From Sipunculus nudus (lineage: Eukaryota > Annelida > Sipuncula > Golfingiida > Sipunculidae): 64,000 nt of DNA. The notes beneath the pieces were generated by a model. The model saw nothing but the letters and a program-made list of their open reading frames with translations, was not told the origin of the DNA and searched no databases. Shown one piece after another: positions 9,501 through 63,239 of this stretch. The stretch lies in contig CM049311.1 of the NCBI GenBank assembly GCA_026874595.1, positions 58,116,453-58,180,452 of the forward strand, read 5' to 3'. The stretch's first letter is position 1; each line of letters starts with the position of its first letter. The position numbers and the translations under genes are program-made.

Positions 9501-12500
9501 GTCATTTTCATTTTTTGGTATTATTACACTTAACCCGGTGGTGTTAAAAATATATCTATTAGAATCACTAAGGTATTAAAGAGTATCATTGAGCACACTG
9601 TGTTATCATCACTAACCTGTTCAGTCTGTTCCTCTTCAGTTGTGCCCTCTGTGTCCATTGGTTCTTCCTCTTGAACAGCATCTGTCTGTTCTTCTTCTCC
9701 TTCCTGTTTATCTTGATCTTCATTCTCCTCTACCTTGTCAAGGTCATATGGATTGTCCTCTGTTGAGAAAACATATCATTTAGATATAAATTAAATTTTG
9801 TCAAACACAATCCTGCCAGCTACACAGAACAATTAATTATCAATCATTTTAAGAAAAGGACAAACATGACTGTCCAACAAACTGGAGAGGACACTAAATC
9901 AGATATAAAGTGAAAGTGATGTACATCAAGACTGAGACCTTTGAATCTGAGACTGAAACAGAGACTGGGACCTTGGATCTTAGACTGAGACCAAGACAGC
10001 CAACAGCCTCTGCTGTTTGTACACAGGTATATAAAGTATTAAATTAATATTAAAGCATCACTGTGAGATATGAAATATCCTTAGATTATAAATATAAAAA
10101 ATGATAGCCTCTGAATCTTAAATGGCCCTAGAGGAAACACAGATGATCTGATGTAAACAAAGTTTATGATGTAACAATAAATCAAATAACAGCCTGGTAA
10201 GTGTGTTTAACAAACAGGGCTTGTCTGTGTTCTCTCTGTACCATGTTTCTCCTCCTTCCCCTCTTCCTCTTTCTCTCCATCCTCCTCCTCCCCATCCAGC
10301 TTCATCTCATCTGGAAGGTCCATGGCCTCTGTCTCCTGTTGTTCCTCTTGCTTCCCATAATGAGGGTCGATTTTCTCATCATCATACTCCCTCTGTTTAA
10401 TACAAAAAAAGCTCTCCCATATAGTTCTGGATTTAATTTTCAGGTTCTTTTCAATGTTTTTCAAGGATATAAATTGTAATTTATAAGAATTTTGATGCAC
10501 TGCCTTTAAACACCCCTTCAGCTGTCTGGTCCTCCCACATTTTTCTTTTATTTTAGATTTTCAGTTTTCATGTACAAGTCTTGAGTTCTTTGTTAACAGG
10601 TAAGAAGCATAATTTGATGCTTTTTGTCTGTCAAAAAAAATAAAAATCAAGGCACCTTTAAAGAAATTTTCATAATTAACCAGATTCAAGCACTTCAAAG
10701 GCCATGAAAATACACAACATACTTTCAAATTTATTCAAGCATATACTAAATTATGGAATTATAAACACAGAAATTATAGAACTGGCTTATCAAATTTTGT
10801 AAGCATGAAATCAACACTGATTTGACATGATCTAATCTTGTTCTGATTTTAAACTGGTATGAATATAACATTTATGGATTTAAGTAAAATTTGTTTGAAA
10901 AGGTAAATAAAGGAAGCCACAGGAATCAGGATTATGATGTATGATGAAGAGGACTGTAATATTTTACAGATATCTAAATTATCTTTCACAAGCTGTCCCT
11001 GACTGTTTAAGTAAAGCAGGAAATACACAAAAATGCAAAATGGTCAGACTACACCACAAATAGTAATTATCAATTATAATTTCTATTACAGAAACAATGA
11101 GAAACACTATACTCCTCTGACAAAATTCATACAAACTAGAATACGGGTAGTCGACAAGCGACTACGTGTATCCGCCAAAATCAGAGAAGGACAGGTGAAG
11201 TAAGGCATGGATTGAGTGGCAAGGGGATATAGAGTTACATGTGTTAAATATTAGAATGGATCTCTGCCACATAAACATGATTGTAGGTGGCGCCACCTGT
11301 TATTTGAAACTATCCAAGATATATACACAAGCAAAATTTCATTTGGAAAAGTCAAACCACTGCAGAGATATGAGTGATTTTATCCCACAGCAGACAAACA
11401 GATGGACGCTGTGCAAAAATGGCTGCAGGTGGCGCCACCATTTTTGTGTATGTTATAAAGCTATCGAAGGGCTACATTTGTGTAAAAAAATTTTCCTGAT
11501 TGGTTGAATGAGTCCGGGATATAAGCATGGATGTCTACAGCGTGAATGTGAATGTAGGTGGCACCACCTGTCATAAAATCAAAAAAGCTATGCGGGATGT
11601 ACACGCATGCCAAATTTTAGGTGATTTAGTCAAACCACTGCAGAGATATGAGTGATTTTAACCCCAGGCAGATGGACAAATGGACACTGTGCAAACATGG
11701 TTGCAGGTGGTGCCACCTTTTGTTGTGTATGTTATAAAGCTATCCCAGGGCTACATTTGTGTAAATTTTTTTTCCGGATCGGTCAAACGGTTCCCGAGAT
11801 ATAAGGGTTTATGTGTGAAGCGTTAACGTGAATGTAGGTGGCGCCACCTGTCATAAAATCAAGAAAGCTATCTAGGATGTATACGCATGCCGAATTTTAG
11901 GTGATTTAGTCAAACCACTGCAGAGATATGAGTGATTTTAACCCCAGGCAGATGAACAGATGGACACTGTGCAAACATGGTTGCAGGTGGCACCACCTTT
12001 TGTTGTGTATGTTATAAAGCTATCCTAGGGCTACATTTGTGTAAAAAATTTTTCCGGATCGGTCAAACGGTTCCCGAGATATATGGGTTTATGTGTGGAG
12101 CCTTAACGTGAATGTAGGTGGCGCCACCTGTCATAAAATCAAGAAAGCTATCTAGGATGTATACGCATGCCGAATTTTAGGTGAAATAGTCAAACCACTG
12201 CAGAGATATGAGTGATTTTAACCCCAGGCAGATGAACAGATGGACACTGTGCAAACATGGTAGCAGGTGGTGCCACCTTTTGTTGTGTATGTTATAAAGC
12301 TATCCTAGGGCTACATTTGTGTAAAAAAATTTTCCGGATCGGTCAAACGGTTCCCGAGATATATGGGTTTATGTGTGGAAACAGACGCACAAACGGACGC
12401 TGGGCAGAGACGAAAGGTCAGAGGTCAAGGTCACTTGGTTAGGCACCAGTTCACATGTGACCCGATAATTTGTGTAAGTTTCGGAAAAATCTGTCCAGTA

Positions 12501-15500
12501 GTCTCAGAGGAGTTCTCCGGAAAGGAACGCGGCGGTGGAACCCGGTCAAAAACATAGTATCCGCAAAACTTCGTTTTGGCGGATACAATAAAATTTTGAT
12601 TGGTCTTACTCTGATAATTTTTTTTACTACAGATTATGAAAAAGCCCTATTCTTGAGACTTCAATATAAAGAGATGTCAGTGATTTTCTTAGGTTAAGAC
12701 ATTTGCTTAAATATATCACCATTCTGCTGAAAAAAAATGTATTTAACATATGATAATGGATGATCTTTGATTGTTTTTCACAAGGTGCCCTTGCAATTTG
12801 AGACCACACAATCAGGTCAGTTAATCATACATGAAGCCTGTAAGGTTGTGTGTTTGCTATTCTGAAAAGTACAACAATAGTCAGCATAGCATGAAAACAA
12901 AATCCCTGCATTTTTCAGGACATTTTAATTTTCAGACTTATTTTTCAAGAATTCTTCCTGATGCATTTGCATGTTTTTTTTTCAGTCAATATCCACATAA
13001 AAGTCAACACAGGGAATCACCCAGTGGTTACACTGTTTGGACATGTTTTAAAACATAACAGATGGCAAAAGATGACATGTGGCAAAACTAAACATACATT
13101 GAAATTAAACATGTGGCAAAATTTATCATACTGACCAATGTCTGAGCTTTAACAAATTCCCCAAGTTTTTCCTGATGAGGTATTTTATTTTTCAAATTCT
13201 CCATGTTTTTTTCTGGCTGGAAAAAAGGAATTCATTTTCCAAATTTCCACTGATTTTCAGGATGACTGGGAATCCTGATCCCTAACAGAGGACATAAAAC
13301 ATGTATGTAGGTCACTGTAGCAATATGATTACTGATACCAGCTTCTGTGGCTCAGGGGTAGTGCACAGGACACTAAGCTGGGAGACCATGAGTTTAAATG
13401 TCAGCCGAGGCGGTAAGATTTTTCACCGTCTGCCCCCACCCAGGGTGAGGGTTCTGCAGGCTTAATGGGAAGGCTGTGCCCAACGGCCATGTTTCACTTG
13501 CAAACCAGTTGACCTTTCAGGTGTTCCTTGGTGGTATGACCAAGCAATGGGGCGATTACGCACACAGGGCCTGCAGATGCAGCAGTCACAGGGCAAGGAT
13601 GTAAAATGAGCAGAAGTGTGTGATACTGCCCTGTCACATAGTTTGAAACCAGAATGGAATTCTGCAGATGTACATGCATGTAGTTAAGTTAGCATTAAAA
13701 AAATGGAGGAGGTTATCTCCAAAAAAAAATTGTGAATACTGATGAGTCACTAGTACCAGCCTGACCTCATCCATCTGATCCAGGTTATTCTGCTTCTTGT
13801 TCTCTCCATCTTCCTCATCCTGGGCTTCCTCTTGCTGCTGCTGGTCCTGCTGCTGTTGCCTGCTGTCATCTCCATCCTCTGGGTTGTCGTCCTTGGCGAC
13901 CAGCTCTGGCTGGCTCTGTTTCCCAGCTCCAGGCCCCTCTTCATCCTTGGTTTCCTGCACATTCAGTACAACATGTTGTCAATCGAGGTATAGTGTCAGA
14001 AAAGGCTTAACAAAAATGTAAACATAGTGTGCCAAAAATTCATTTTTCTCAAAGACAAAACAAAGAGGAAAATAATAAAACATGACAGAAAAGTTAAATG
14101 TATTTTAATATTTTAAGAATAACAGTGGGATGGTGTTCTCTTTGACATAAAAGTTAATCCTCTCATCATACTATACATTCAAAATATTAAAATCATTGTG
14201 TACTGACATTAATATTTCTAATATATATCATAATAAACATTACTGACCTGAGTATTTGCAATTCTTATTTACCATACATAATTTACCATAATAATAATAA
14301 TAAAAAATATAATAATAATAATAATAGTAATAATAATAGTAGCAGTAGTACTAATCAATATCAGTATTATCATCAACAGACCTTATCTTCTTCTTCATCC
14401 TCCCCATCACTTCCCCACAGCTGCTCATCTAATTTGTCTGCCTCCTGCCCTTCAAGGTCACCCATCTGCTTGTCAAGGTCATTTTCATCCATCTCGTTCT
14501 CAGAATCAGAATCATCATTACCTTCTGAAAGTCAGAGAGTAGTCAGGAATAATCATCAATATAGTGGCTATAAGGTCTAATCAATGATCCATTCATATAC
14601 TGCACACCTGATAGTTCTTGTTAAAATTCGATATGTATTTTTCTTAGATTAAAAAGTAATTTAACCTTGAAGCACAAGCCATTCTGAAAACCCTATCTAT
14701 AATGTGACCAGATAAATTGCCCGGAACTGAGAAAGTTTAATTTCAGTTCTGGACCACTTGATTAAAAAAAATACTGCAAAAACAACACAAATTAAAACCA
14801 TTTTCATGGCACGCTATACCCAAAAAATAATTGTATGTTTTTTTGGGTCAACAAATGTTGAATGTATCACATGCTCTGTCATCATACTTGTGACTTTTTA
14901 TACATTGTATATATATTTATCCAGATTCCTGTGGAATAATCATGATATTTTCTCTATAACTGCCCACCCTGACCTGTAGCTTGCACATCTTCTAATTTTC
15001 CCTCAAAGTCTTCATTCATCTCAATGGCATTTTCCTCTGGCTGAATGTCTGGCTGCTGTCCACCATCTTGTTTCTCCTCCTCCTCTCCTTCTTTCTTTGC
15101 CTCTTGGAGCTGCAGATACCATAAAGTATATAAAAGATGCTCAGGTCTGTATCAAATGAAGATAAAATGTCCACAAATTAGTTTATGTTCTCAAATACAA
15201 TAAAAAAATATATAAAATATGCTCAGGCCAATATAAAATGAAGATAAAATGTCCACATATTAGGTTATGTTTTCATCTACTTTGTTGCTTTGACTGTTTG
15301 TTTGTTAAATAGTTTTTAAGAGACTTCTAAAAGAGGTGGTTTATCCTGGTTATATGAAGGCCTGATAAATTTTGTTTTGATATGAATCAAATACATATTC
15401 ATGAATTTTCTTTACCTGATGAGCCCTGCTATATTTAGCTTAATAATACTTGGTTCAAAGATATGCTTCTGTCTCCTTTTGGGCAAAAGGAAGGTACCTG

Positions 15501-21500: not shown

Positions 21501-24500
21501 TTTCAATGACAATTGATTTATACAGCACAAACTATAAAGATGAAATCCTCTGATTGCAATAATCATATTTGTAATGATTAAAATTCTGCCAATATTTCAT
21601 AGATAAGATAAGGTGAAGTTAAGATAAAAGTGAAGATAAAATGCCAACTCACCTCAGTCAGAGTATCCTTCTGTAGCTCATGTACTGTCTCAATTATATC
21701 TCCTGAAATCAGCAGTACCATTAATGATAAGCAAATAATGTATATGTTCCCCTTGAACCACTATATAAACAATTGCAGCATGTAAATGATGGTGAAACTG
21801 ATTAGCTATTCATTTATTTATGGATGCATGATTATATCAGTTATTGCATATTAATAAATCCATTAGCATGTTTGTTGAAAATTTGACCACATGAATACAA
21901 GCATGGCTCACACAGGTTCCAGGATGAGGGATGAGAGCCAACTTGTACGCAATACAGGAAATGATTCATGAACATAGAGACAAATTTTAAGTTTGGTTTG
22001 TGAGTTCACATGTATTCTTTTGTGTTAATTTGTCACTCATAGCCTAATGTTCAGATTAAGGACTGTTGACCAAATATCAATGCAAGAGGATGAATGACTG
22101 TTGCAGTACATTCCCCAGTATGGCTTGTATCATGATTAAAACTAGACATTTCTTGGCACCGCAGGTGCCAGAGTATCCCCAGACATAGTACGGCCCCTCT
22201 TTAAGAATAGGCCCCCATTTTTAGCTCCTGTGACCTTCACCTTTGACCTTGTGACCTCAAAATTGATAAGGGTCTTACTCTCTTGGCAGGTAAACTATAT
22301 GTGCAAGATGAAAGGTCTGAGATGAAATGTTTGGCTGAAAATGCATCAACAATCTTTTTAAAGATGTATCCTGTGACCTTGACCTTTGACCTCATGACCC
22401 CAAAATCAATTGAGGTCTTGCTTTTTCCAATGGGACATATACAAGTCAAGTTTGAAATCCATACATCAATAAAAGCAGGAATTATCATCCAGAAACTAAT
22501 TTTTGGACAGATGGCTCCTGTGACCTTCACCTTTGGCCTTGTGTTTGAAATCCATATGGCTATCAACACTGGAGATATCATAAGAGGTGTGTGATTTCAC
22601 CAAATATGGACACATTAAAGGTCAAGGCCACTCTCATGGTAAAGGTCATGACCCAAATGTAAATAGACCTCATCCCATAACCAATCTCTCTACATATGCA
22701 TTATATGAAAGAAATCTGTCCATTAGTTTTTGACTTATAATGCTCACAGTGCTGTCAAGTTGCCCTTTTTAAGATATTCATGATTTTATGTTTTTCACCA
22801 AATATGGGAATATTCAAGGTCAAGGTCACTCTCATAGTCACGGTCATGACCCCAAATCAATAAACTGCATTCCAAAATATCCAACATTTGAAAAAAAAAT
22901 TAAATTTAAAAAAAAATAATTTAATTTAAATTAAATTTTAAAATTAAATTTAAAATTAAATATACCTCATTCCATAAACCATATCTATATACATGCATAA
23001 CATGAAAGAAATCTGTCCATTACTGTTTGACTTATAATGCTCACAGTATATACTGTCAAGTAGCAACTAGATATTTCTTGGCACTGCAGGTGCCATAGTA
23101 TCCCCAGACAATTAATCCCCCCCCCCCTTTTAGAATAGGCCCCCCATCTTCAGCAACAATTAATATCAGACCACACTCATAGAAAAGGTCATTCTCATAG
23201 AAAAGGTCATGATCCAAATTTCAATATACATCATCCCCTAACCCATGTCTATGTATATGCAAGAAATCTGTCCATTAGTTTTTGACTTATAATGCTCACA
23301 ATACTGTTAAGTGGCAATGATGGGGTATTAAATGGCACGAAAACAAGTAAAAGAATAACAGGTGGCACCACCTGTTTCCTGTACATGACAACACTATCCA
23401 AGATCTTTGTTCAAGTTGATTTTTGGACCAATCAATGCATCCCTTATTGAGAAATTAATGATTTTGTGTGATTTTCACCATATATGGCAATATTCAAGGT
23501 CAAGGCCACTCATTGGAAAGGTCATGACCCCTAATCAAATAAACATTATCCTATAACCCATATCCATGTATATGCATAATATGAAAGAAATTTGTCCATT
23601 AGTTTTTGACTTATAATGCTCACAGTACTGATAAATGGCAATGATGGGGTATTAAACGGCACAAAACAAGTAAAAGAATAACAGGTGGCGCCACCTGTTT
23701 CCAGTACATGACAATACTTTCCAAGATCTTCGAACATGTTGATTTTTGGACCAATGCATGCATCCCTTATTGAGATATTAATGATTTTGTGTAATTTTCA
23801 CCATATATGGCAATATTCAAGGTCAAGGCCACTCTAATAGGAAAGGTCATGACCCCAATTTATATATACATCATCCCATAACCCATGTCTATGTATATGC
23901 ATAATATGAAAGAAATCTGTCCATTAGTTTTTGACTTATAATGCTCACAGGTTATAAATGTACTGTTAAAAGGCAATGATAGGGTATTAAACGGCACGAA
24001 AACAAGTAAAAGAATAACATGTGGCGCCACCTGTTTCCGGTACATGACATTACTATCCAAGATCTTCGGTCAAGTTGTTTTTTGGACCAATGCATGCATC
24101 CCTTATTGAGAAATTAATGATTTTGTGTGATTTTCACCATATATGGCAATATTCAAGGTCAAGGCCACTCATTGGAAAGGTCATGACCCCTATTCAAATA
24201 AACATTATCCTATAACCCATATCCATGTATATGCATAATATGAAAGAAATTTGTCCATTAGTTTTTGACTTATAATGCTCACAGTACTGATAAATGGCAA
24301 TGATGGGGTATTAAACGGCACAAAACAAGTAAAAGAATAACAGGTGGCGCCACCTGTTTCCAGTACATGACAATACTTTCCAAGATCTTCGAACATGTTG
24401 ATTTTTGGACCAATGCATGCATCCCTTATTGAGATATTAATGATTTTGTGTAATTTTCACCATATATGGCAATATTCAAGGTCAAGGCCACTCTAATAGG

Positions 24501-27500
24501 AAAGGTCATGACCCCAATTTATATATACATCATCCCATAACCCATGTCTATGTATATGCATAATATGAAAGAAATCTGTCCATTAGTTTTTGACTTATAA
24601 TGCTCACAGGTTATAATGTACTGTTAAGTGGCAATGATAGGGTATTAAACGGCACGAAAACAAGTAATAGAATAACATGTGGCGCCACCTGTTTCTGGTA
24701 CATGACATTACTATCCAAGATCTTCGGTCAAGTTGTTTTTTGGACCAATGCATGCATCCCTTATTGAGAAATTAAATGATTTTGTGTGATTTTCACCATA
24801 TATGGCAATATTCAAGGTCAAGGCCACTCATTGGAAAGGTCATGACCCCTATTCAAATAAACATTATCCTATAACCCATATCCATGTATATGCATAATAT
24901 GAAAGAAATTTGTCCATTAGTTTTTGACTTATAATGCTCACAGTACTGATAAATGGCAATGATGGGGTATTAAACGGCACAAAACAAGTAAAAGAATAAC
25001 AGGTGGCGCCACCTGTTTCCAGTACATGACAATACTTTCCAAGATCTTCGAACATGTTGATTTTTGGACCAATGCATGCATCCCTTATTGAGATATTAAT
25101 GATTTTGTGTAATTTTCACCATATATGGCAATATTCAAGGTCAAGGCCACTCTAATAGGAAAGGTCATGACCCCAATTTATATATACATCATCCCATAAC
25201 CCATGTCTATGTATATGCATAATATGAAAGAAATCTGTCCATTAGTTTTTGACTTATAATGCTCACATGTTATAAATGTACTGTTAAGTGGCAATGATGG
25301 GGTATTAGACGGCACGAAAACAAGTAAAAGAATATTAGGTGGCGCCACCTGTTTCCGGTACATGACAATACTATCCAAGATCTTCGGTCAAGTTGATTTT
25401 TGGACCAATGCATGCATCCCTTATTGAGAAATTAATGATTTTGTGTGATTTTCACCATATATGGCAATATTCAAGGTCAAAGCCACTCTCAAAGGAAAGG
25501 TCATGACCCCAATTTTAATATACATCATCCCATAACCCATACCTATGTACATGCATAATATAAAAGAAATCTGTCAATCAGTTTTTGACTTGTGATGCTA
25601 AAAGTACTGTCAAGTGGCAATGATGGGGGTATTAAATGGCACAAAAACAAGAAAAGGATACTAGGTGGCACCACCAGTTTCTGGTACATGACATCACTAT
25701 CCAAGATCTTTGTCCAACTTGATTTTTGGATAAATCCATGAAAGATCTCTTGAGATATTTAAGAATTTGTGTGATTTTCCCAAAAAATGGATCTATTCAA
25801 GGTCAAGGTCACTCTCCTAGTTAGGGTCATGACCCCATTTTAAATAGGCTTCGTCCTCTCACCTATATATTTAAATGTGTCAAGTTTGAAAAAGATCCTT
25901 GAAATATTTTTTGAGTTATTGTGTCCAAAAGAAATCTCTGCGGCGGCGGCGGCGGCGGCGCAACCTTCCCTAAACCATAGTATCTCCAGACTATGTCTGG
26001 CAATACAATTAGGCTTACCAGTCCAATATGAATGTCTACTGAGTCAGGTATTCACAGCTATTACGTATACTGAAGTGGTCATGAGCTAGGTCTCTTCTAA
26101 TGCACCTTTCCTTAAACAGAGCAGGTCTATCTGTCAGCTTTACTGCCTGTGATGTTAAAACTCAGCAAAGTTTACAACCTTCTTCACTACCATTGAGGAG
26201 CTAAATCTGCTTGTGATGGAGTGGTTTTACTGACTGGTAAGCTGATCCAAAGTGATGATGTGGTAACAGTATGTATAATCTGCCTGTGATGGAGTGGTTT
26301 TACCAACCAGTAAGCTGATCCAAAGTCATGATCAGGTCAGAGTATGGCTTCTGTTGTAAGATGCTCCTACAATGTTTCCTCATCTTCTGATACAGGGTTG
26401 GTAACCGTGGCAACACACCTGTTGATGATTCCAGGTCTTGGATTTCAGCCATATGTTGTGTCAGCTGGAATAACAACATCATTATCATCTTGTTGATGCT
26501 GATTACATTTGCTGCATGCGTTTTGTTTAAAACATTCAACTAAAAGTGGTATAAAAACCAGAAAACTGAATGCTCAACAGAGCAGTGCAGAGTTTCCCTT
26601 GTTACAGAGATCATGTATTACATCACTTCAGCATTTGACCATGTTTTTGTAAGGATTAATGAGGTTACAGTGAGTCTGAGCTGGTAGATGGTAATATGTT
26701 CACCAGTTCACTATGATATCTTACTATTAGTGGGAACAGCCCCCAAATAATTACTAAATATGTTGAAAACACCTGAAATGTAATAACAAAGAGCAATGTC
26801 CCATCTTCCAATCTTTATTTTATGTGCTCACTATTTCAACATATGTGAAATATCAAAATTATAAAATACACTAACATAGCAGAACTAATGTATACTCAAA
26901 GAAACAAAGAATGAAATATACTGAAGTTATTTTTCCCAATGAAAGAGAGCCAAACAAGAACTTACTTAACTTATAAACAATATAAATAATTCCTAATGGA
27001 CAAAAAGGTTTATTGTTATGATATAAAAACTAATAACAAATTTGAATTGTAATGTATACTGACTGACTAGTCTAATTATTGTTACCTTTTTGTCACAGAT
27101 GTAAAGAGATAAGTCCTGATCAGGTGTGGTGTGACCTCTGACCTCTTCTGACCCTGTGACATCTTCCATGTCCTTTGTGTCTATGAAGAGCTTGTTTGCT
27201 GGTTGCTGTAGGACTGTGGTGAAGGCTTTTATGTGCTTGTGTAGGGTCTTGTGGGTCTTCTCTACAGCTTGTTTCATTGCCCAGAAATTCAAATCATTCC
27301 AACGGGCTATCTTTACATAACCCTGCAAACAAATAACAGAATCTTTAATGTCAATCACATTATCATACACACTTATGTAAACTATAGATACATGAAAGGC
27401 TCCCTCTGTTCACATGAACAATTCTGATCACAGGATTCAATAAGTCTATCACATCATGATTTACTTTGCTTATTGGATCACATAATCAACAATAAGTTTT

Positions 27501-30500
27501 ATAAACTAATCTCATCTATCTTACCTATATTATCACTTGATGTACTCAGCCTATTTGATCACATGATTTACTAAGCCAATCTGATCACATGACAAATAGA
27601 GCCAATCTGATCATCTGATTTGCTGAGCCTACCTGATCATCTAATTTATTGAACCTATTTGATCACATGATTTAATCAGCCAACCTGATCACACGATCTG
27701 CAGGGCCCACCTGATCATATGATTTACTGATTCTGTATTAATCTCCTACCTTCAGTTCTTTTTCTATGGGTGATCTTTTCTTTGACACCTCTGCTGCAAC
27801 TTTGTCCTTGAATTGGGAGTAAAACTGATGGACATTCCATAAAGATGCTAGAGCTTGTTCTGCAAGAAATAAACAAATACAAAAAACACACATATTTAGA
27901 TCAAATCAATTTAAATAAGATGACTATTTATCTACAAATGATGGCTATCTTATGTATTATATACAAGAAATTCTAAGGCAAAGTTAAAAATTTCAGCTTA
28001 GGTAAAAATCTTAAGTTTGTGTGAGCTTTCCTACATATCTATTCAGCTCAGATTAAAATCAATTATTATTTGGAAAATAATTATGATATTCATTTTCTTT
28101 AACCTCTAACTGAATATATAATTTATTAGAAGTACTGATCATGTTTATATTTTCCATCCATTCTTATAGAAAATCGTGCCACAAATGCATACTTTCTTTT
28201 CACTGGACAAAGTGTATGTTATTTTATGATTTTAGAAGCAACTATGAAAGACAGATCTAACATCTTTTTAATGTTTGTATCTTTTATCTTTGTGACTGAC
28301 TTTGTGTGGGTGATTTCTCCATGTGGATGGTCTGACAGTGAAATGCTCGTAGCAGACTCAGGCGGGCCTGGAACTCTCCAAGGTTTGATGTCTCCATAAA
28401 CTGCTGAAGACTCTTCACAAACTCTGTGACGCTGGGCTGTAATCATAAACCACAGGAATCAGACTGATGGTGGTAACACACATGGTACAGTACTACATTA
28501 TAAATAAGAAATACAACTTTATAAGTTTGTTATATGACCAAAGTCCAATAATTAAAGTATTAATTTTTCCAATCAAGTTATATTACTTTTTTAAATAAAA
28601 TAGAATAGAGGTTATCATTAATTTGTTAAGTTTCACGTTTCAAAAACTTGACTAGTAAGATGAAACTTGCATAGCACACCAAGAGGAATAAGATGTAATT
28701 TCCACAGACAAACAAGAAATTCATTAGTATTCATTTCATACTTATAATTCATAGTTTGTGTTGTCTCTACAGATTGGCTACACAATAAAAACAAGCAAGT
28801 GCTTGTAAAAATGACCTATCTGTATTAAAAAAAAGAGAATGTAAAATATCCCGATAAAATGTCCACAAGAATGCATCACACATGCTGTAATCTGTGTTAT
28901 GATTCCCATGATCCTCACCTGTGTACTTGCTGACCCCTGGGGTGGTTGAATGAATCCTTGAACCACCTGGTAAAGATGGAACCACCAACGGTTTGCCCTG
29001 TGGGAAACCTGCCATGCTGCTGTGTCTAAGCACTGGTGCCAGTGTCTGCAAAGGTCAAAGTTCAAAAGTCAAAGTTCAATTTTTTGGTTGTTTAAAAACT
29101 GGCTATTTTTGCTTTTCATCACATGTAAAAATAGTTTTTGTATACAACTACCCTGACAATATCATTCCACCTCACCCCCATTAACAAAAAATATTTATGG
29201 ACTATTAAGAATCTTTGGTGAAGGACAGTTGTGAAATGCATATTCAACCAGGAACTTGCTGTAAAAATTCAGTTCTGACTCAAAACTAAATTCCTGTAAA
29301 TCAATTTACTTTCTGATTCCAGGCACTTAGGGCTCCACATAGCTCTCTATTTTGCACTCTTGCATGTTTGACTTTTAAAAACTTAATTCATTTTTTTTCA
29401 GATTTTGAAGTGAGCACAACGCCTGCATAATTGATTGACCAACCTCAGTTCTAGCTTCCTGTACTGTATGATCATCTGTGTGACCTCTTGAAGGTGAGAG
29501 GTCAAGGTAACATGACGAGCAGCATTGCTTTCCCATTCCTGCAACGCAGAAGTATAAATGTCTAAGAGCACAATACAATGCTTGAAACTAAAATTTGAGT
29601 CTAAATAAATTACTACTGTTAAAGTGTACTCCCAATTTTGAAGTGTACATTGGGATTGTAGTGATTTGTCACAAAAAAGTTAGGTATATTTCCAAAACAA
29701 TTTGGTCTCTGAAGTTGCTCCCTGCTGAACATATATGTATCTACCAATACAATAAGGAATGCTGTGACAGATCAACTGTTAAACAGGTCAGTTTTAATGT
29801 GTGACCACTGAATAACAATCACATATATGTTTTGAATATGAGATGTTCAGAGTCATGATGAAATCACTATTGAACAGTATAAATATATTTTATGATATGA
29901 TGTTTAACACCTGTTTCATTTTGCTTTTACCTGTGCCTTCTGAAGCAAGACCTCCAAACCAGTAACAAACTTCATCAGTGGGCTGGTTGCCGGGAACAAC
30001 AGGATACGATCAATTATGGTCAAAAGCTACAAGCAGTAAATTGCACTTCATTCAATGTACAATGGCAAATGTCAAGGTCAGCTATTTCACTTTTAATCAA
30101 ATGTAATGTAACATACAAGAAATAAAGATCTATCTGATAGTCTAAGAAAGTACCCGGGTTGGGTTTACATGCAAATCAGTACAATAAAATGCATAAGCTT
30201 GTTTCAAATAAATCAAAGACAAATACAGATGCAGCAGTAATTAGACATAAAATGTAAATGTGCTATAACTTATTAAGTGCAAATCAACATTATAAAATCA
30301 ACATAAACTTGTTATGCAATCTAAGCTAAAACTATTGTTTAGACCTTTCTGATATTATAGTTAAGGCTTGAGTTAGCAATTGCATATTTCTAATCATGAC
30401 ATCCATGGAGGTCATATTGACCAGTTAAAGGAAACTATAAAAGCCCTTGCACATGGGTGTTTACTGAATAACAATAAATGAGATGTAACATGTACTGGTA

Positions 30501-33500
30501 CTCTTAGTGCTAACTGCAAAACCCTCATATACAACAGTACACAGACACTGCTTTAATGGTTTCTTCTTTGTCTGCAAGTAAATACATATGTAAAAAGGAT
30601 GCTCTGACCTGTTTCAGTGTCGGGTGGTCTGGCCATTCTTCCAACAATTCAGTGATCCTGATTCTAAGTTTCATCAACAGGGGGCGACACTGTGACACCT
30701 CAGGCACATTTGGATCATGGTATATATCATATGGTTTCTGCGACTGAAAGAAATAAAAAGAGTTTATTTCCAAAATATGACAATCACGAGCAAATTACAC
30801 ACATTTATAAGAATGATTCCTAAACAAAATTATTTTTCATCTTTAATGCTGATAAGCTTCATTAGAAACTTTTTATTTTAAATAATTTTGTGCATGGCCA
30901 TATACTGCCCATCATACAGGTGCTTGTTACATACATGGCTGCATGTTTAAAGTAAGTTTGAGTTGAAATAAGGAACATGGACTCATTATGTTTTTACATA
31001 TAACCTTTTACCACTGTCTTTATGAGGAATGCTGAGCTATGTACATAGAGATTAAGGGAACTAGATAAAGTTGTGGCATTTTCAAGGTGGTCATCTAGGC
31101 GAAGTTTTCATAAAGCACAAAAAAAGAACTATGACCATGAATAAGTGTTGGTATTTTAAGATTGTCCATATACATAGGTGGTCATTGAGTGAGGTTTTAC
31201 TGTATTATTAGAGATTTTGAATACCGGTACATTCTCTTGACCTGAAACACAGGCTTGCCCACTAAGAGCCAGGCATGCTCATATTTGGCTATATGAAAAC
31301 TAATTTTGGTGATGATTGCAGAAAGCAGACTCTCCAGTCTTAGTTTGTAAACTGTACCTGAGTGATAGCACTGTTGTCCAGGACTGATCTCTGTAGTGTG
31401 GAGCTTGCCAATAAATGACCTCCCACCAGCTGCCCATCAGTGCTGCCATCTACAGTCAGAGTAAGGTACCAGTCATAATTTCTCAAATGTAACTTTAAAA
31501 TTAAGCATCTACCTTTATATTTTCATTCCAGATTTATCTTATGATAACATAAATTTCAATACTTTGTTTGATAATGAGCCTGTAGACTGACAGAGAAAAA
31601 AATTACTAACGATTAAGTAATTTGTATTTTTATTAAAATGAAACCATATACTTGAATATTACAAGCTATAAATGACTGTTGTAAACAACTAGATGTGTCG
31701 GAACAACACGAATGCCCCCCCTGGGGCAAATTAGAAACATTTGTAAAATTTTGAAAAATTGTTTAAGTTCAGGAGGTGTCGTATGGTCAAAAGTAGGTCA
31801 ACAAGGGCAAAATGCAAACTCGATCTGTAACGGGTCATTATCAAGCAACACACCAAAAATCATGCCAGTATATGCAGGCATTGTGACAAAAGTCCATACA
31901 TGCACATTTTCCATTAAAATTTCTGTCTTTCATGAAATTTTTTATGTTTAGGAGCTGTAAAACAATCAAAAGTAGGTCAACTGGGACAAAACGCGAACTC
32001 GATCTGTAACTGTCATTATCTGCCCACACGCCAAAAATCAGGCCCGTATCTGCAGGCACTGCGAAAAAAAGTCTGTACAAGTGTATTTGTCATGAAAATT
32101 TATATTTTACATGAAATTTTCTATGTTCAGGAGCTGTAAGACAATCAAAAGTAGGTCAACTGGGACGAAACGCGAACTCGATCTGTAACTGGTCATTATC
32201 TGCCCACACACCAAAAATCAGGCCAATATCTGCAGGCATTGTGAAAAAAAGTCCGTACATGTGTATTTGTCATGAAATTTCATATTTTTCATGAAATTTT
32301 CTATGATCAGGAGCCGTAAAACAGTCAAAAGTAGGTCAACCGGGAGGAAACGCGAACTCAATCTGTAACTGGTCTATATCTGCCCACACACAAAAAATCA
32401 GGCCAATATCTGCAGGCATTGCGAAAAAAAGTCTGTACAACTGTTTGATTTCGGAAGGACGGAAGGACGGAATGACGGACATGGGTAACACTATATGCCC
32501 CGGCCACTTTGTGGCGGGGGCATAAAAAAAGGGTTAAATGTAGGCACACTTTAATACTAATTGCACAAATCCACTTTCAGGAATATAACTAAAATACTTA
32601 TTTTTTTTTTATATTAAAACTCAAGATGTCTATATATATTGATTTGCAGTCTGTTCTAAGTCCCTTTATGTATATCAGTTATAGCTACCCAATTAACCTA
32701 AAATAATATTTTGTATCTTCATGTTAATATAACTGATTTATGCTGTACTGGTCAAAAGTTGGAAGGTCTCACCCAGCAGCTGCCAGTGTTTCTTAGTGAT
32801 GTGTGCTGCCACCTGGTAGCACAACATGCTGGCTTCCTGTTGGTTCACCTTTCTTTCACCAGGTGTCAATAGCAGCCAGGGTGCTCTGGTCCAAGAGATG
32901 AGTATTTCTGAATGTACCTTGCTTACAAGCAACATCTCAGATTCTGACACAGACAGAATGCTGTGAGTTGACAGCTCTCCTTCTGCCTCTGTGCCTTCTT
33001 CAGTGATGGTTTCCTTCTTTGTTTTGTCCTCTAGGGTAGGGCCAACAGTTACATCCTCAAAGTCCTGGTTAAATGATAACAAAATAGACAGTATTTATTC
33101 CCCTGGAATCATGTACAAATTTATATGTCAGTCAATATACTGCCCATCCATGAAATTGTATACAGTGAAACTCTCAATTACAGACACAGACAAGACTTAA
33201 GTTTCTGTCCACAATAGACAGATGTCTGTATTAGAGAGGTCACAGATATCAAAATCTACTTCTTTCTGGACCATCTGAAGTGCCTGTAGGGAGAGGTTGT
33301 GATGTTAATGCAGCTTTTTAGGAGACTACAGCATTAGACATCAACATTAAGAGATCTTTAACTAAAAGAAGACTGCTGCAATATAGACTTCACCACACTT
33401 CTCTCCTCGCTGACTGCCATACAAGAACCTTACTAAGGTTTCTGCAATCTTTATTTTTTATTGTCTTGCGTTATCCCTACACAGATTCTCAAACCAAAAG

Positions 33501-39500: not shown

Positions 39501-42500
39501 TGTCAAGAATGAAGATTCTAGGTCCAGTCGTTACTATTTGTGCTATCCTAACAGATGACAGCATCCTTAAAGGTCTCAAAAATAGAGGAAAAAATCGTAA
39601 AAAATTGAACGATACAGGTGGCTCCACCAGTCTGCAGGAACAGATGACACATCTCATGATCAATAGTTATGCCACAAATCATGACCATCATTCAAGTAGT
39701 TAATGAGATACTGAAGTTTTTGTATGAAATTTTTTACTTTTCTTGGGGGTATTTTGGGGCTCCATAGCTCGAAGAATATGGGCAACAGAGACCTAATTTC
39801 TGGTTTCCATGGAGACTTTTCATAGGTCTCTCAGTGTGTCAAGAATGAAGATTCTAGGTCCAGTCTTTACGATTTGTGCCTTGTTAACAGATGTTCACAT
39901 TTTGAAAGGTCTCAAAAATAGAGAAAAAAATTCGTAAAAAATTGAACGATATAGGTGGCGCCACCAGTCTGCAGGAAGTGATGGAACATCTCATGATCAA
40001 TATGTATGACAGAAATCATGACCATCAGTCAAGTATTTAATGAGATATTGAAGTTTTTGTATGAAATTTTTTACTTTTCTGGGGGGTAGTTTGGGGCCCC
40101 ATAGCTGGAAGGATATGGGCAACAGAGACCTAATTTCTGGTTTCCATGGAGACTTTTCATAGGTCTCTCAGTGTGTCGAGAATGAAGATTCTAAGTCCAG
40201 TCATTACGATTTGTGCCTTGTTAACAGATGTTCACATTTTTAAAGGTTTCAAAAATAGAGAAAAAAATTCGTAAAAAATCGAAAAATACAGGTGGCGCCA
40301 CCAGTCTTCAAGAACTGATGGAACCTCTCATGATCAATATGTATGCCAAAAATCATGACCATCAGTCAAGTAGTTAATGAGATATTGAAGTTTTTGTATG
40401 AAATTTTGGACTTTTCTGGGGGGTACTTTGGGGCCCCATAGCTGGAAGGATATGGGTAACAGAGACCTAATTTCTGGTTTCCAAGGAGATTTTTCATGGA
40501 CCTCCCAGGATGTCAAGTAAGAAGATTCCAGTTCAAGCGGTTACGATTTGTGCCCTGTTAACGGACAGACGCCCGGACGGCCGGACGGCCGGACGGACGA
40601 CGGACAAAAGGTGATCCCTATAGCTCAGATGACTTTCAGTCAGCTGAGCTAAAAAAGACAGAGAGATATAAAAACAAAGCAAATCACTTTAATTCCCATT
40701 CTACTGGGGCAGAAAAATACTGAACGAATGTTTGCATTAGGTCCTCATTTTTTTATTACATCAATTTTTTGTTAAGGGAAATTTTGGAAAAAATTTATAA
40801 ATTTTACTATACATTTACAATATATATCAAATATATTTGAAAATTTAAATTGATTAACAATTCTAAATTGCATCAACATTTACAGTTAATCTGCTCAGTC
40901 AAACAATTATGTCACATAATATACACAGATGTATTTATTTTTTCTTAAAATATATTTTTTTTAATTTGAAAAATAATAAATATCTGAAAATAACACTTGA
41001 TTCAGGAAAAGTTGTATACATTGGATCGTGAACAGCAATGCAATTAAAGTATGTAAATAATGCAACATATCTGTTGGGGGGGGGGGGGAGGGAGGGAGGT
41101 CAGGGTTGCCATGTGATTCTACATTTGTGACAGCAGTGTTGCATCACTAACAGGCAAGGCTGTAGTGACCAGACATGGCTGGTCTGGAGGTTCAAAATGA
41201 AAATACATTAGAGCCTCAGAAAAACTTCAACAACTAGAACAATTTTTAAGCTTTTACTTTGAAATTTCAGAATTTAACAGATTAAATCTATATATATCGA
41301 CTGTGAAAAGTAAATCAAATGTTCTTACAAGAAAGAAACATGTCATGGTCAAACTTGGGCAAAATTTAAGTTATACAGAGGAATATTTATGGTAAATATG
41401 AAGAAAACCAGATGAGTGGTTTTGATATTCGGCAGTCCTGAAGTATGAAAATAGATACTTAATAGAAACACAGGTGTATTTAATTTTTTCTAAAAATATA
41501 TTTTTAAATTATAACTTTTTTAAATTATATAATACTGACTAAATTACTGGCACGTACATAGGAACTATACAGAGGAAACAGTTAAAGTTTTGAAATACTG
41601 TGATGCATATGAAAAATTTACAGATGGACAGGCAAGTGGAAAGAATGGACTAATACATTTATTTCACTTTCAAGGGAATAATGCATTTAAGTTTATATAT
41701 AAGCCTATTTTTTTAGCATATCCACTTTTTCCATTAATAGTTTTAATTAAATCTTATTCATTTTTTTTTATTTACAAGTTTTATAAATGTGTAATAAAAC
41801 AACTGAACATATAAGTTAAAATATTAGAATTCTAAGCTGCAATCATTATATATCCAGAGTGTAGGTCATATTGGGTCATATTATGCATACACATATATTT
41901 TTCATTTTTAAATCTCAAATGTTTAAACTGAATTTAAAAGAAAATAATGCCACAACATGGCATCTAATAGATTATTCCTTGAATCACTATTAAAAAGTTT
42001 TGCACATTGGAATTTTCAGTACATGCTTAATTTTATTCACCGAAATAAAATAAAAGATTCAGTAAATTGGATAAAATAAAAAGATCTTTTCAAATAAAGT
42101 ATACACACTTTTGGTTGAATGAAGGACAAACAATATAATTATGCTAATTACAATCTCAGCAATAATTTATTACTGGAATTAATAGTCAATTTCACACCTG
42201 GTGAAGTTTTTACTCTTCTGAAGTAAGGAATTACTTATCTGATGAACATCCACACTTTCATAGCAATACACCACTTTGTGGACACTATTAAATGAGCACT
42301 TTAATCATTGTAACCCTGGTGGTACAATACATAATCTAAAATGTAGCATAGCCATGAATAAAATAAAATACAGAAAATTATAACATTCATCTAGTTAATG
42401 CACCATGGGGGGGGGGGAGTGCAGGGCAGAGGGGAAGCCTGCTAGTAGTGGCCAAGCTGAGCCTGAGGCAAGCTGCCTCGGGTGGGTTACATAATGCAAG

Positions 42501-45500
42501 TGATGGCTGTTTTACTAGGTGAGCCAGATGTAAACCACACTTGACATGGTGTATGAAAACTTGAATAAAAGCTACTCTTTTCTATCAATTCCTTTGAAAT
42601 TTCAGATTGTAAAAGATTAAATCCTTATGTATATATGCTGTGAAAATTAAATCAACAGTGCTTACAGAGAAAAAACGTGCCATTCCCAAAGTTGGACAAA
42701 ATTTAAGGTATTATTTTTTTATTTATGCTAATAACTTGAAAAATTTGCAAAATTCAGATCTAATTTTGGGGAAATCATTGAATCTTGATTAAATAAAGTT
42801 ATATTCCTGAAAAAAGCTTCAGCAATTCTCACGTTAGGTGAGTAAATACATTTCCTGATTTTTTAAAAATTGCATTATATTTGGGCCTATAACAAAATAA
42901 TACCCAATACTGACCTAATTTTTGGTATGTTCATAGAAAATGTATGGAAGAATATGAATACTAAATATGACTAAGAACAGATCAGTGGTTTTGATATTAG
43001 GCAGCCTTGAAGTGTAACAATGGCTTTTTTATGGAAAACGGAGGTTTTTCCTTAGTATCTCGAAGGAACGAAGTCCTAATGACCCAATTTTTGGTATGGT
43101 AGGAGAATTTGGGAACATCTAATGGTATGTATAATTTTGGATTCATAGGTCTAACAGTTTTAAAATGTGCCCTGTTAACGGACGGACGGCCGGACGGACG
43201 GCCAGACAGACGACGGACAAAGGACCACGACTATAGCTCAGATGACTTATAGTCAGCTGAGCTAAAAAATAAGTAAAATATTTAGGCTATACCTAGGAGG
43301 CAGGAACGATTATGCTGAATTCCTGCATGGATCAAACCTCTTCTTCAAACGTTTTGTACTTTTTCAATTACCTGGTATGTAATCCATCAATACATTTATT
43401 TACATACCTTCTGGCAGGATTTTGTGATTGGTCAGATGACTCTTCTTGCATATTCATAAGCAGATGTTCAGCCAATGGTAGATGTCTCACTATGATTCTA
43501 TTGGCCATGGCTCCTGGTGACCTGTTGACCTCAGAGAATGCTGGGAAACCTCCCAACTGTCCAACAAGGTCTTCGAGAAGAAGCTGTAGAGACAACAATT
43601 AAATAAATATTGTGTAAATGTTGATTTTGTTCAGATGAGTTGTATGTCACTTCTTGAAAACAAGAGGTAAGCTCTATGTGTACATTTGTTAATGTAACAT
43701 CTCCTCAGGGAAAGGGAATATAATGACTGTGCTGAGTGGTACAGTACCCAGAATATAAAAATTTAAATTATTTAGTAACAGTTCTATAACTAGGGACCCA
43801 TAGGTCTCGACGCTCAGCTGAATTTGTCTATAAGGATATTTTTTTAGAAATTTTTTTTCAGAATGACAGTCCTTGTTACCTTGTTTAACCAATGACCTCA
43901 TGACCAAAAAATCTTCGAACTTATTATCCTTGAACTAGCAGCATTAAGATTATTGTAACAATCTTTTAAAAAGTGACCTAAAAATCTACAGATTTCCTCA
44001 CTTTGGGCAAGTAAGCCATGTGTGAAAGATGGAAAGTTTGGGATGAAAAGTTTGATTTACAGTGCATCCACAATCTTTTTAAAGATGTGGCTCCTGTGAC
44101 CTTCAACTTTGATCTCTGGACCCTGAAAATCAAAATGAATATACTTAAGTTGTGGGTCATTATTAAATCAAGTTTGAAGCATCTGTATATCCAAAGCAGA
44201 ATCATCATCCATAAACTCATTTGTAAATGGATGGGCCCAGTGACCTTGACCTTTGACCCAAAATCGAACAAAATCTTCTCCAACTGGCAGGTTAGCAATA
44301 TCTTGAAGATGGAAGGTTTGTGATGAAAAGTTTGGCTTCAATTGCATATGCATTCTTTTTAAAGAAAAGAGTCCTGTGACCTTGACCTTTGACTGTTGGA
44401 CCCAAAAAATCAACACAGTTCTTACTTTAGTAGTGAGCCATATATAAGTTAATTTTAAAATAAATATGTCAAACTACACTGGTGTTATCATCTGGAAACT
44501 AATTTGTGAACAGATGGCCCCTGTGACCTTGACCTTTGACCTTGTGACCCCAAATTCATTTATGCTCTCCCCATACTGGCAAGTCAGCTAAATGTGCAAA
44601 ATGGAAATTTTGGGAAGAAAAGCTTGGCTTAAAATGCAGCCATTATCTTTTTAAATAAGTGAGTTCTGTGCCCTAGACCTTTGATCTTGTGAATCCAAAA
44701 TCATATAGGTTCTTGCTTTAGTGGTGGTCCATATGAAAGTCAAGTCTATAATCCATGTGTCAAGACAACCTAAAGTTATCATCAGGAAACAAATTTGTTT
44801 GGATGAATGGATGAACAGACAGACAGACAAACAGACAAACAGACAGGGTGATTACTGTAGGTCATCCACTTGTGATCAATAAACACACCAGGTTTTGGGA
44901 CACTAGATGTAATCACAGCTGAGAAACTGACATGATTCTTGTCATTTTAAAGTAAAACAATAGAATAATATTCGTTGAAATAACAAAAAAATACAGGTGG
45001 TGCCACCTCTATTTGGGAACTGACAAAACTAGTCATGGTCAATATTCATGGCAAGATTCATGACAGTCTGTTAATTATCAAGATATTGGAGGGTTTGTAT
45101 CAAATTTTTTATTATTCTTGGGGGTACTTTCAAGCCCAATAGCTTGGAGGATATAGGTTGCAGTGATCTAGTTTCAGGTTTTCAAAGAGATTTTTTTATT
45201 GACCTCATTTGATGTTCACTTAGAAGTTTCTAGGACCAGCAGTTACTATTTGTGCCCTGCTAACGGACGGCTGGACGGCCAGACAGCTGGATGACCAGGC
45301 GGCCGGAACGGACAAAGGACAAAGCGCCATTCCTATACTTCAGGTGATTTACAGTCAGCTGAGCTAAAAATAGTAAAATGTGTGATGTTGCTGCTTTTAA
45401 GTATATACACAACACAATGATGTCTGCTGAGTGTCAGCTGACCTTAACCAAACAGCTAAACATGACATGATTGTTTCTTGTGACATCACAAACCCTGCTG

Positions 45501-57500: not shown

Positions 57501-60500
57501 ATAAAATGAGTATAATGTTAATTATCTTTCTCTTTTCCAGATCCACATATAATGATTTAGCAAATTAACCACAGCACTGTTTAATTAATTTCACTGGTAT
57601 TAAATGTAACACAACTGACAGTTAGAGACCCTGTCTAAAAACAAGTGACCCATGGGTCATGACGCTCAGCTGACTGGGAAGAGATTCGCAAAAGGAAATT
57701 TTATCATCAGAATGGTAGTATATACCCATTCAACTGAAGCATCAAACAGATTAACCAACAGGCCAAGATTTAGTCTGTATTTATATATCTCAAAAATAGA
57801 GAAAAATGTGTACATTTTTAAAACTAGAATACAGGTAACCGACAAGTGACTACATGTATCTGCCAAAATCAGATAGTGAGGCATGGATTGAGTGGCAAGG
57901 GGAAATAGAGTGAGGTATGTTGCATATTAGCATGGATGTCTGCAGCCTAAATGTGTATGTAGGTTGTGCCACCTACCACAAATCCAGAAAGCTGTCCAAG
58001 TTGTATACACCTGCAAAATTTTAGGCAGAAAAGTCAAACCACTACATGTATATGAGCGATTTTTGCCCATGGCAGACAAACAGACAAACACTGTGCAAAA
58101 ATCTTTCCAGGTAACCCCTCCAGTTTTGTGTATGATAAAGACCTATGTGAGATCTAAACACATGCACAATTTTGGCCCAATCGGTCAAATGGTTCCTGAG
58201 ATATGAGCTTGGATGTGTCCAGCATTAACTAGAATGTAGGTGGCGCCACCTGTCATAAAATCAAGAAAGCTGTCCACGATGTATAAACCTGCAAAATTTT
58301 AGGCAGTTATGTCGATCCACTACAGAGAAATGAGTAATTTTAGGCCACGGCAGACTAACAGACAGACGCTGTGCAAACATTGTTACAGGTGGCGCCACCA
58401 TTTTTTGTGTATGTTACAGAGCTATCAAAGGGCTACATTTGTATAAATTTTATTTCCTGATCGGTCAAACGGTTCCCGAGATATAAGCTTGGATGTCATC
58501 AGTGTGAACGTGAACGTAGGTGGCGCCACCTGTCATAAAATCAAGAAAGCTATCCTGGATGTATACACATGACGAATTTCAGGTGAATTAGTCAATTCAC
58601 TGCAGAGATATGAGTGATTTTAACCCAAGGCAGATGAACAGATGGACACTGTGCAAACATGGTTACAGGTGGCGCCACCATTTTTTGTGTATGTTATAAA
58701 GCAATCCAAGGGCTACATTTGTATCAATTTTATTTCCTGATCGGTCAAACGGTTCCCGAGATATGAGGGTTTATGAGTGGAACCAGACCCACAAATGGAC
58801 ACTGGATAGAGAGGAAAGGTCAGAGGTCAATGCAAATTGGTTAGGCACCAGTTCACATGTGACCCGATAATAGGTGTAAGTTTGGGAAAAATCGGTCCAT
58901 TAGTCTCAGAGGAGCTCTCTGGAAACGAACGCCGCGGCGGCGGAGGAACTCGGTCAAAAACATAGTATCCGCAAAACTTCGTTTTGGCGGATACAAAAAT
59001 ACAGGTGGCTCCACCAGTCTGCAGAAACTAATAAAAACACTTAATGGTCAATATCCATGCAAAAAATCATGGTGATCTCTGCATTAGTTGTTCAGATACT
59101 TCAGTTTTTGTATCAAATTGTCCATTATTCTGAGGGATACTTCGGAGTCCTATAGCTTGAAGGATATGGGTAACAGAGACCTAATTTCAAGTTTCCACAG
59201 GCACCTTTCATGGGCCTCCTTGCATGACAAGAATGAAGATTCTAGGTCCAGTTGTTGCGATTTGTACCCTGTTGACAGATAACCACATCTTTAAAGGTCT
59301 CAAAAAAAAGAAAAAAATTCGTAAAAATTTGAAAAAAAAATAGAGGTGGCACACCCAGTCTGCAGAAACTGATGGAACAGCTCATGATCAATATGTATGC
59401 CGAAAATCATGACCATCAGTGTTGTAGTTATTGAAATACTGCAGTTTTTGTATCAAATTTTCCATTATTCTGGGGGGGGGGGGGGGGTATTTTGGACCCA
59501 TACAACTTAAAGAATATGGGTAACAGAGACCTAATTTCAAGTTTCCATGGAGACTTTTCATGGGTCTCCCTGTGTGTCAAGAATGAAGATTCTTGGTCCA
59601 GTTTTTATGATTTGTGCCCTGTTAACAGATGTTCATATCTTTAAAGGTCTCAAAAATACAGAAAAATTTCGTAAAAAAAACCGAACAAATACAGGTGGTG
59701 CCACCAGTCTGCAGAAACTTATGAAACACTCCATGATCAATATCCATGCAAACAATTATGGTTATCTCTGCATTAGTTGTTCAGATACTTTAGCTTTTGT
59801 ATCAAATTTTCCATTATTCTGAGCTGTACTTTGGAGTGCCATAGCTCAAAGGATATGGGTAACAGAGACCAAATTTCAGGTTTCCATGGAGACTTATCAT
59901 GGGTCTCCCTGTGTGTCAAGAAAGAAGATTCTAGGTCCAGTCGTTACGATTTGTACCCTGTTGACAGATAACTACATCCTTAAAGGTCTCAAAAATGGAG
60001 AAAACAATTCGTGAACATTGAAAAATACAGGTGGCGCCACCAGTCTGCACAAACTGATGAAACATCTCATGATCAATATGTATGTCGAAAATCATGACCA
60101 TCAGTGATGTAGTTAATGAGATATTGAAGTTTTTGTATGAAATTTTTGACTATTCTGGGGGGTAATTTTGGGCCCCATAGCTCGAAGGATATGGGTAACA
60201 GAGACCTAATTTCTGGTTTCCATGGAGACTTTTCATAGGTCTCTCAGTGTGTCGAAAATGAAGATTCTAGGTCCAGTCGTTATGATTTGTGCCATGCTAA
60301 CAGATGACAGCATCCTCAAAGGTCTCAAAAATAGAGGAAAAAATCTTAAAAAATCAAACAGTACAGGTGGCGCCACCAGTCTGCAGGAACTGATCGAACA
60401 TCTCATGATCAATATGTATGCCAAAAATGAAGACCATCAGTGATGTAGTTATTGAGATATTGAAGTTTTTGTATGAAATTTTTTACTATTCTGGGGGGTA

Positions 60501-63239: not shown

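Follow-up and report, generated by a model that had tools for sequence, protein, structure and literature searches.

The closest described relatives of the elements reported here are the DINE-1/HINE elements, whose plan, in the excerpt of Thomas et al. (2014, PMC4067079) available to us, consists of a 5' subTIR, a complementary IR, a microsatellite, a tandem core, a 3' subTIR and a palindrome. Cg_HINE of Crassostrea gigas follows the same plan in the accessible part of Vojvoda Zeljko et al. (2020, PMC7492417), where some Cg_HINE have common motifs in otherwise divergent monomers (Cg_HINE_4) and others have unrelated cores. The bivalve Pearl elements and CvA, CvE, CvG, MgE and DTC84 also have tandem cores, a likeness that we draw from their descriptions, and Pearl has been re-categorised as a non-autonomous Helentron (PMC7492417 and PMC11136912, both in excerpt). 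Ten autonomous C. gigas elements are described in the same part of PMC7492417, none of which could be related to any Cg_HINE, and autonomous copies were not detected in the oyster set of PMC7992393, as far as its available text goes.

Here we describe four repeat families of Sipunculus nudus that are very likely HINEs, non-coding rolling-circle elements that depend for their movement on Helentrons encoded elsewhere in the genome, a kind known from oysters and flies. The elements are ordinary in kind, with a useful link to coding Helentrons for two of the four families, a core module common to three of them and a pattern of co-orientation.

Results

Eight elements of four families in a 64-kb window

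The window analysed is a 64-kb stretch of the 1.43-Gb Sipunculus nudus assembly GCA_026874595.1 (CM049311.1; contig C6:58,116,453–58,180,452). Eight elements of four families (A, B, C and D) were found within it, all co-oriented on the minus strand. The left side of each has CTAG or CAAG and a short hairpin; the right side has a microsatellite and a hairpin that is longer. Family A comprises copy 1 (11136–12588), with the transposon 5' end at the right and the 3' CTAG end at the left, and copy 2 (57824–58996), which an empty-site comparison with D units placed within family D copy 3. In copy 1, the 5' subTIR with its complementary IR hairpin lies at 12550–12588 and the 3' end, consisting of subTIR, palindrome and CTAG, at 11136–11181. 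The family B element is a composite (22142–26008) with 3' ends at 22142 and 23067 and a single 5' end at about 26008, an arrangement that fits 3'-end bypass or nesting. The two family C copies lie at 31689–32528 and 34138–35833. In family D, copy 1 (36940–40655) ends in CTTG and is composite, since it contains an internal 5'-end motif, a right end, at 38268–38281; the diverged copy 2 (43790–45370) ends in CTAG; and copy 3 (57642–61080), which ends in CTTG, has family A copy 2 inserted within it. Outside the catalogued elements, D ends that are degenerate or stand alone were also seen at 35881–35907, 6821–6834 and 43251–43264, and further tandem arrays at 1–440 (59-bp period), 6287–6567 (90 bp) and 27524–27728 (26/52 bp). 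A Pfam search with 10 window ORFs and PDB searches with two window ORFs gave no matches.

The ends of the eight elements, with their left and right hairpins, were determined by eye. The IR complementary to the 5' subTIR was adjacent to it in every one (the right hairpins), and the short 3' palindrome (the left hairpin) was present in the window elements. The transposon strand, minus in the window, is fixed by the coding Helentrons described below, whose coding sense runs toward the CTAG/CTTG end. On this strand the families start with TTGTATCC (A), TTGTATTG (B), TTTTTATGCC (C) and TTTTTAGCTC (D), with a 5' TC absent from all four. The left CTAG was exact in six of the eight elements (both A copies, B, both C copies and D copy 2), and D copies 1 and 3 have CAAG, which reads CTTG on the transposon strand, as it does in both D Helentrons.

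These readings bear on an earlier note made from the window alone. Its hairpins were all recovered and the elements lay where it had placed them, but the right ends run 2–5 A/T bases farther than it gave, and the two left ends with one right end of B, the composite D copy 1 and the nesting of A copy 2 in D copy 3 revise its extents. Its left terminus of ACTAG or a variant was borne out as CTAG in the six elements with the exact motif, D copies 1 and 3 having CAAG. What it called the Helitron 3' end is Helitron-like as far as CTAG goes, but there is no 5' TC, and two of the three window D elements and both D Helentrons end in CTTG.

The left subterminal repeat agreed with the reverse complement of the right end, that is, of the right-hairpin arm, as had been claimed: 14/14 and 13/14 positions in A copies 1 and 2, 15/17 in B, 8/8 and 11/11 in C copies 1 and 2, and 11/11, 10/10 and 13/13 in D copies 1 to 3. 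In a null of 2000 random window pairs, the 95, 99 and 99.9% values were 8, 10 and 14 and the maximum was 15; C copy 1 did no better than the 95% value, and each of the remaining seven elements reached or exceeded the 99% value. With a score of 7, the inner B end fell short of the 95% null value. The evidential weight of the ends comes from their recurrence in genome copies and from motif counts more than from subTIR scores in the window.

Genome copies and insertion sites

Across the genome, the exact 3'-end hairpin motifs occurred 5313 (A), 1548 (B), 2450 (C) and 7731 (D) times, and reversed-pattern controls occurred 0 times for each family. These are exact matches to one end, not full-copy counts, and the B motif counted is a sub-type slightly unlike the outer B end of the window. 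With counts of 1548–7731 against none in the controls, the four families and the common layout proposed for them are real. An apparent strand skew of family D (39 of 40 listed rows on the minus strand) was rejected, the genome-wide strands being nearly equal (3854 plus and 3877 minus), and was taken as an effect of candidate scoring.

Two-ended copies were obtained for 24 places (9 A, 4 B, 8 C and 3 D), two of which (L021 and L022) are not independent, since their flanks are nearly identical. The family ends recurred in genome copies with differing flanks, and the insertion flanks were T-rich or TT. When the joined flanks of the 24 copies were searched against the sequence retrieved in the analysis, a match spanned the junction in six, and four were usable as paralogous empty sites: an A copy (L005, 89% identity), two C copies (L019, 85%; L024, 77%) and the window A element inside D (77%, with a poorly aligned junction). 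The two other matches, at 69% identity, were left out. Beyond 0–3 extra A letters, no target-site duplication was found in the four usable sites; judging from the sequence, the extra letters may belong to the T-run of the element itself or reflect a duplication of 1–2 nt. Constant ends with differing flanks, and no duplication outside this A/T ambiguity in four empty sites, are what the earlier note's proposed check on genome copies returned.

Tandem cores of A, B and D share a directional module

Tandem cores were detected by TRF in seven of the eight window elements, with periods of 280 bp in A, 336 bp in B, 180 bp in C, 166 and 337 bp in D copy 1 and 336 bp in D copy 3. The core array expected in every element was missing by TRF from D copy 2 (43790–45370), in which the repeats found were limited to a short ACAG microsatellite and others that were short and at chance level. 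The family A core (11286–12277) carries two palindromes of the GGTGGCGCCACC type in each 280-bp unit and the B core (23361–25675) one in each 336-bp unit. In D copy 1 (core 37780–40302) the palindrome recurs about every 337 bp with some copies imperfect, and the core of D copy 3 (58995–60975) consists of 336-bp units with the palindrome. The D Helentrons also carry the GGTGGCGCCACC module, about every 337 bp.

With up to 2 mismatches, GGTGGCGCCACC occurred 37 times in the window: D had 14 of these matches, A 13 and B 9 (including one in the CGG microsatellite), one lay elsewhere and C had none. The 15-mer ACAGGTGGCGCCACC had 60 346 occurrences in the genome, and its reversed counterpart had 1. 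Downstream of the palindrome comes a GAGATAT-like box, at 76 nt in eight of the nine B matches; 12 of the 13 A matches have it at 67–78 nt, 74 and 78 being the usual distances; among the 14 D matches, it lies at 76 nt in eight and at 72 nt in one, and is absent within 110 nt in five.

We compared consensus units built from 23 (A), 9 (B) and 5 (D) units. For the 110 nt downstream of the palindrome, with the palindrome itself excluded, z was 3.1–4.3 in all six consensus pairs, and 0–7 of 1000 dinucleotide shuffles scored as well. The 110 nt upstream gave no signal in five of the six pairs (the B–D pair had z 2.6, with 7 of 1000 shuffles scoring as well), and segments half a unit off gave none in the five pairs using such segments. 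On this alignment signal, the cores of A, B and D, whose ends are unrelated, have in common a directional module of ∼120 nt led by GGTGGCGCCACC. The families thus differ in sequence at their ends, as had been described, but the A, B and D cores are not unrelated. The shared module arose via common descent or core exchange.

Within each family, other 12-mer windows were better conserved than the palindrome, 138 of the 326 in D, 41 and 15 of the 269 in A (one figure per palindrome) and 34 of the 319 in B, which rejects it as the best-conserved 12-mer, and its conservation is supported only as sharing between families. The palindrome could, as a guess, be a putative protein-binding site; nothing related to the letters GGTGGCGCCACC was found in open-licence PMC papers. 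In the excerpt of PMC12628747 available to us, different oyster Helitron elements have core types in common, and core sharing as such is therefore not new.

Coding Helentrons with family C and D ends

A genome search with Helitron_like_N gave 143 matches, some of which are fragments of one locus, and 16 Rep loci were read in part (4 + 12, the latter 12 covered only between 3 and 7 kb past the Rep match). Among these 16, a D 3' end was found in two, a D-like end in two (L054 and L060), a C end in two and none of the A–D 3' ends in 10. The D and C ends adjoin the coding region. The two D-type Helentrons, at C17:35.63 Mb and C5:42.91 Mb, are 14 888 and 16 131 bp long. Both start with the family D 5' end, the GTCC microsatellite and D tandem units; their homology stops at CTTG and a common TTT, and their flanks differ on both sides. 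In the C17 copy, an open frame of 2342 aa contains Herpes_teg_N, DUF6570, Helitron_like_N (E = 3e-27), PIF1 (1e-21) and a sub-threshold Exo_endo_phos, and the frame of the C5 copy is broken. Herpes_teg_N in the C17 frame is presumably an OTU-like protease.

The C-type Helentron (C3:41.77 Mb; 12 008 bp, with its 5' boundary defined from one copy) has both family C ends, the family C microsatellite and tandem core, and a split frame with Rep, PIF1 and a sub-threshold Exo_endo_phos. A second family C 3' end was found at the C5:20.31 Mb locus, with a flank unlike that of the C3 copy. In the C and D partners, the Helitron_like_N and PIF1 matches were above the cut-offs; the Exo_endo_phos matches in two partners scored 22.5 and 23.2 bits versus a Pfam cut-off of 24.5, and no nuclease came up when the D Helentron protein was compared with PDB sequences.

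The window elements match these Helentrons closely at the ends. Window D copy 3 agreed with the C5 D Helentron over its first 60 bases (60/60) and with the C17 D Helentron in 32/33 positions at the 3' end, and both window C copies agreed with the C Helentron in 59/60 positions at the 5' end and in 31/33 and 32/33 at the 3' end. The window D elements aligned at 68–88% identity with the initial ∼2 kb of the D Helentrons, and the window C elements at 78–88% with the initial ∼1.25 kb of the C Helentron (up to 6 pieces per pair in both cases).

For families A and B, no 3' end was found beside a coding region at the 16 Rep loci sampled. The only A-type ends at Rep loci came from an A-like HINE nested in both D Helentrons (5826–6683 of L048 and a counterpart across L050/L064), and D Helentrons may therefore carry A-type passengers. 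As candidates for A or B partners, 27 + 4 sites had the 3'-subTIR pattern after non-HINE letters, and the six that were read looked like ordinary HINE copies. The suggested check for an autonomous element with the same ends thus succeeded for C and D but not for A and B. Another coding Helitron-like family (L043–L046, L065 and L066) was seen at C7:31.58 Mb and C11:50.39 Mb, 99% identical over 13.8 kb, with tandem units of ∼148 bp containing the hairpin TCTCGTTTGACGAGA and with ends outside the 20–21 kb read.

Orientation domains on contig C1

Exon-like frames lie on the minus strand at ∼17037–62544 of the window, and a splice-site filter retained the minus candidates 30533–30743 and 62288–62544 along with two plus candidates that look spurious. 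The joined minus-strand frames gave a weak PDB match to midasin (E = 0.028, 42 residues), and we take the frames to be in line with midasin. From these predicted frames, the minus strand likely carries a host gene, which may be midasin, although this is thinly shown; the transposon strand of the window HINEs is the sense strand of this putative gene.

Orientation on a larger scale was followed on contig C1, from the first places listed per family (100 rows each for A, C and D and 98 for B; exact-motif copies only), which cover C1 to 16.3 Mb for A, 16.8 Mb for D, 38.6 Mb for C and 60.7 Mb for B. Among these listed C1 copies, different-family pairs agreed in orientation in 71 of 88 cases at 2–20 kb, 110 of 134 at 20–50 kb, 140 of 213 at 50–100 kb, 194 of 362 at 100–200 kb and 355 of 715 at 200–400 kb, agreement over 0.15–60.7 Mb falling to 50% by the last interval. 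Pooled below 50 kb, 181 of 222 pairs of listed copies (81.5%) were co-oriented, a value that none of 500 rotations of each family's strand labels reached (null 49.8%, sd 3.9%), and the signal was present in all six family pairs at 20–50 kb. With one random pair of listed copies per bin, a mean of 55.5 of 73 bins agreed at 100 kb (p = 2.6e-6) and 42.9 of 57 at 200 kb (p = 8e-5), and for pairs up to 100 kb apart in 400-kb bins, 30.2 of 45 agreed (p = 0.018). In runs tests on the listed C1 copies of one family at a time, D gave a clear result (z −4.0) and B a weak one (−2.2); A (−1.0) and C (−1.2) did not reach significance.

The co-orientation could stem from replication polarity, from insertion linked to transcription or from selection that disfavours one of the two orientations. 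We tentatively entertain that HINE insertion is strand-biased by local polarity, either replication-fork direction or transcription, and that thousands of HINEs record domains of ∼50–100 kb genome-wide. The available part of a review (PMC5371812) ties IS608-type orientation bias in bacteria to replication; IS200/IS605 elements likewise transpose as single strands with an orientation tracking chromosomal polarity, but IS608 is bacterial and its polarity is that of replication, and the data here come from part of one chromosome. Insertions of Helraiser prefer transcribed genes, according to the portion of PMC4778049 consulted. Somewhat more doubtful is that insertion is unbiased and the pattern reflects selection after insertion inside introns, for example against copies whose antisense orientation exposes poly(A) signals. 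The co-orientation of all eight window elements over the apparent minus-strand host gene is weak evidence in its favour, and the right end of family A carries AATAAA antisense to that gene, in copies picked by likeness to a query with AATAAA. Most B, C and D copies read have no AATAAA at this end (one D copy, L036, has it through its flank), and the recurrence of the signal in each of the six family pairs at 20–50 kb among the listed C1 copies also speaks against intron selection. Among open-licence PMC papers, as far as consulted, we found none that describes Helitrons or HINEs as co-oriented by region.

Discussion

The assignment of the four families to HINEs rests on the exact ends, the four empty sites without obvious duplication and the coding Helentrons for C and D, which together uphold the Helentron-like identity that had been proposed. 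The CTAG terminus is more typical of canonical Helitrons and counts against it. We consider it very improbable that the families are canonical (Helitron1) non-autonomous elements, with a 5' TC, a hairpin 10–12 nt before CTRR and A/T insertion. In their favour, a 3' hairpin stands close to CTAG in A, B, C and D copy 2, the empty site of the L005 A copy is readable as A|T, and oyster elements with CTAG and subTIRs are described as possible intermediates in the part of PMC7992393 available to us. None of the A–D starts has the TC, hairpins stand at both element ends, D copies 1 and 3 and the D Helentrons end in CTTG, and the partner proteins end in an Exo_endo_phos match, below cut-off. We give practically no credence to a DDE transposase acting on foldback/TIR elements or MITEs that contain tandem cores: inverted repeats do lie close to both ends, and the excerpted PMC7492417 notes that Pearl was originally termed a MITE, but the ends are asymmetric, the four usable empty sites show no obvious target-site duplication, and elements coding for Rep and helicase have the C and D ends.

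On the transposon strand, the elements start with T's, followed by a hairpin of the 5' subTIR and its complement and a C/G-rich microsatellite, and continue with a tandem core (in seven of the eight copies), a 3' subTIR, a short palindrome and CTAG/CTTG, in a T-rich target. The C and D HINEs appear to be internal-deletion derivatives of Helentrons with the same 5' end, microsatellite, core and last ∼33 bp, and A and B were presumably moved by related Helentrons. The Rep domain would nick the 5' end and the helicase would then peel off the strand, with the 3' palindrome probably working as a terminator by analogy with Helraiser, a canonical Helitron for which this was shown (PMC4778049, in the part available).

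The plan agrees with what the consulted portion of PMC4067079 gives for DINE-1/HINE elements and Helentrons, namely subTIRs of 11 or more bp, an IR by the 5' subTIR, a 3' stem-loop, a microsatellite, tandem repeats and T-rich targets, as well as a Rep–helicase–endonuclease partner for Helentrons, of which the endonuclease match is sub-threshold here. Unlike the animal Helentrons of that portion, our elements terminate in CTAG/CTTG at the 3' end, as given there for a P. infestans proto-Helentron and canonical Helitrons. They also resemble Cg_HINE in the 5' subTIR with IR and microsatellite, the satellite-like core and the 3' subTIR with palindrome. The relation between the left repeat and the right-hairpin arm, which the earlier note had singled out as worth describing, is therefore already part of the defining DINE-1/HINE/Cg_HINE plan in the available parts of PMC4067079 and PMC7492417, and the layout is not new. 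What differs from Cg_HINE, compared by its published description, is the presence of coding Helentrons with both the C and the D ends.

If the co-orientation on C1 holds genome-wide, it would make testable whether replication, transcription or later selection lies behind Helitron-type insertion in animals. The C and D Helentrons supply the link to an autonomous partner that PMC7492417, in its accessible part, could not make in oyster. Since they carry the ends, the microsatellite and the core, the tandem core belongs to the coding element as well, and a satellite-like repeat can spread along with it.
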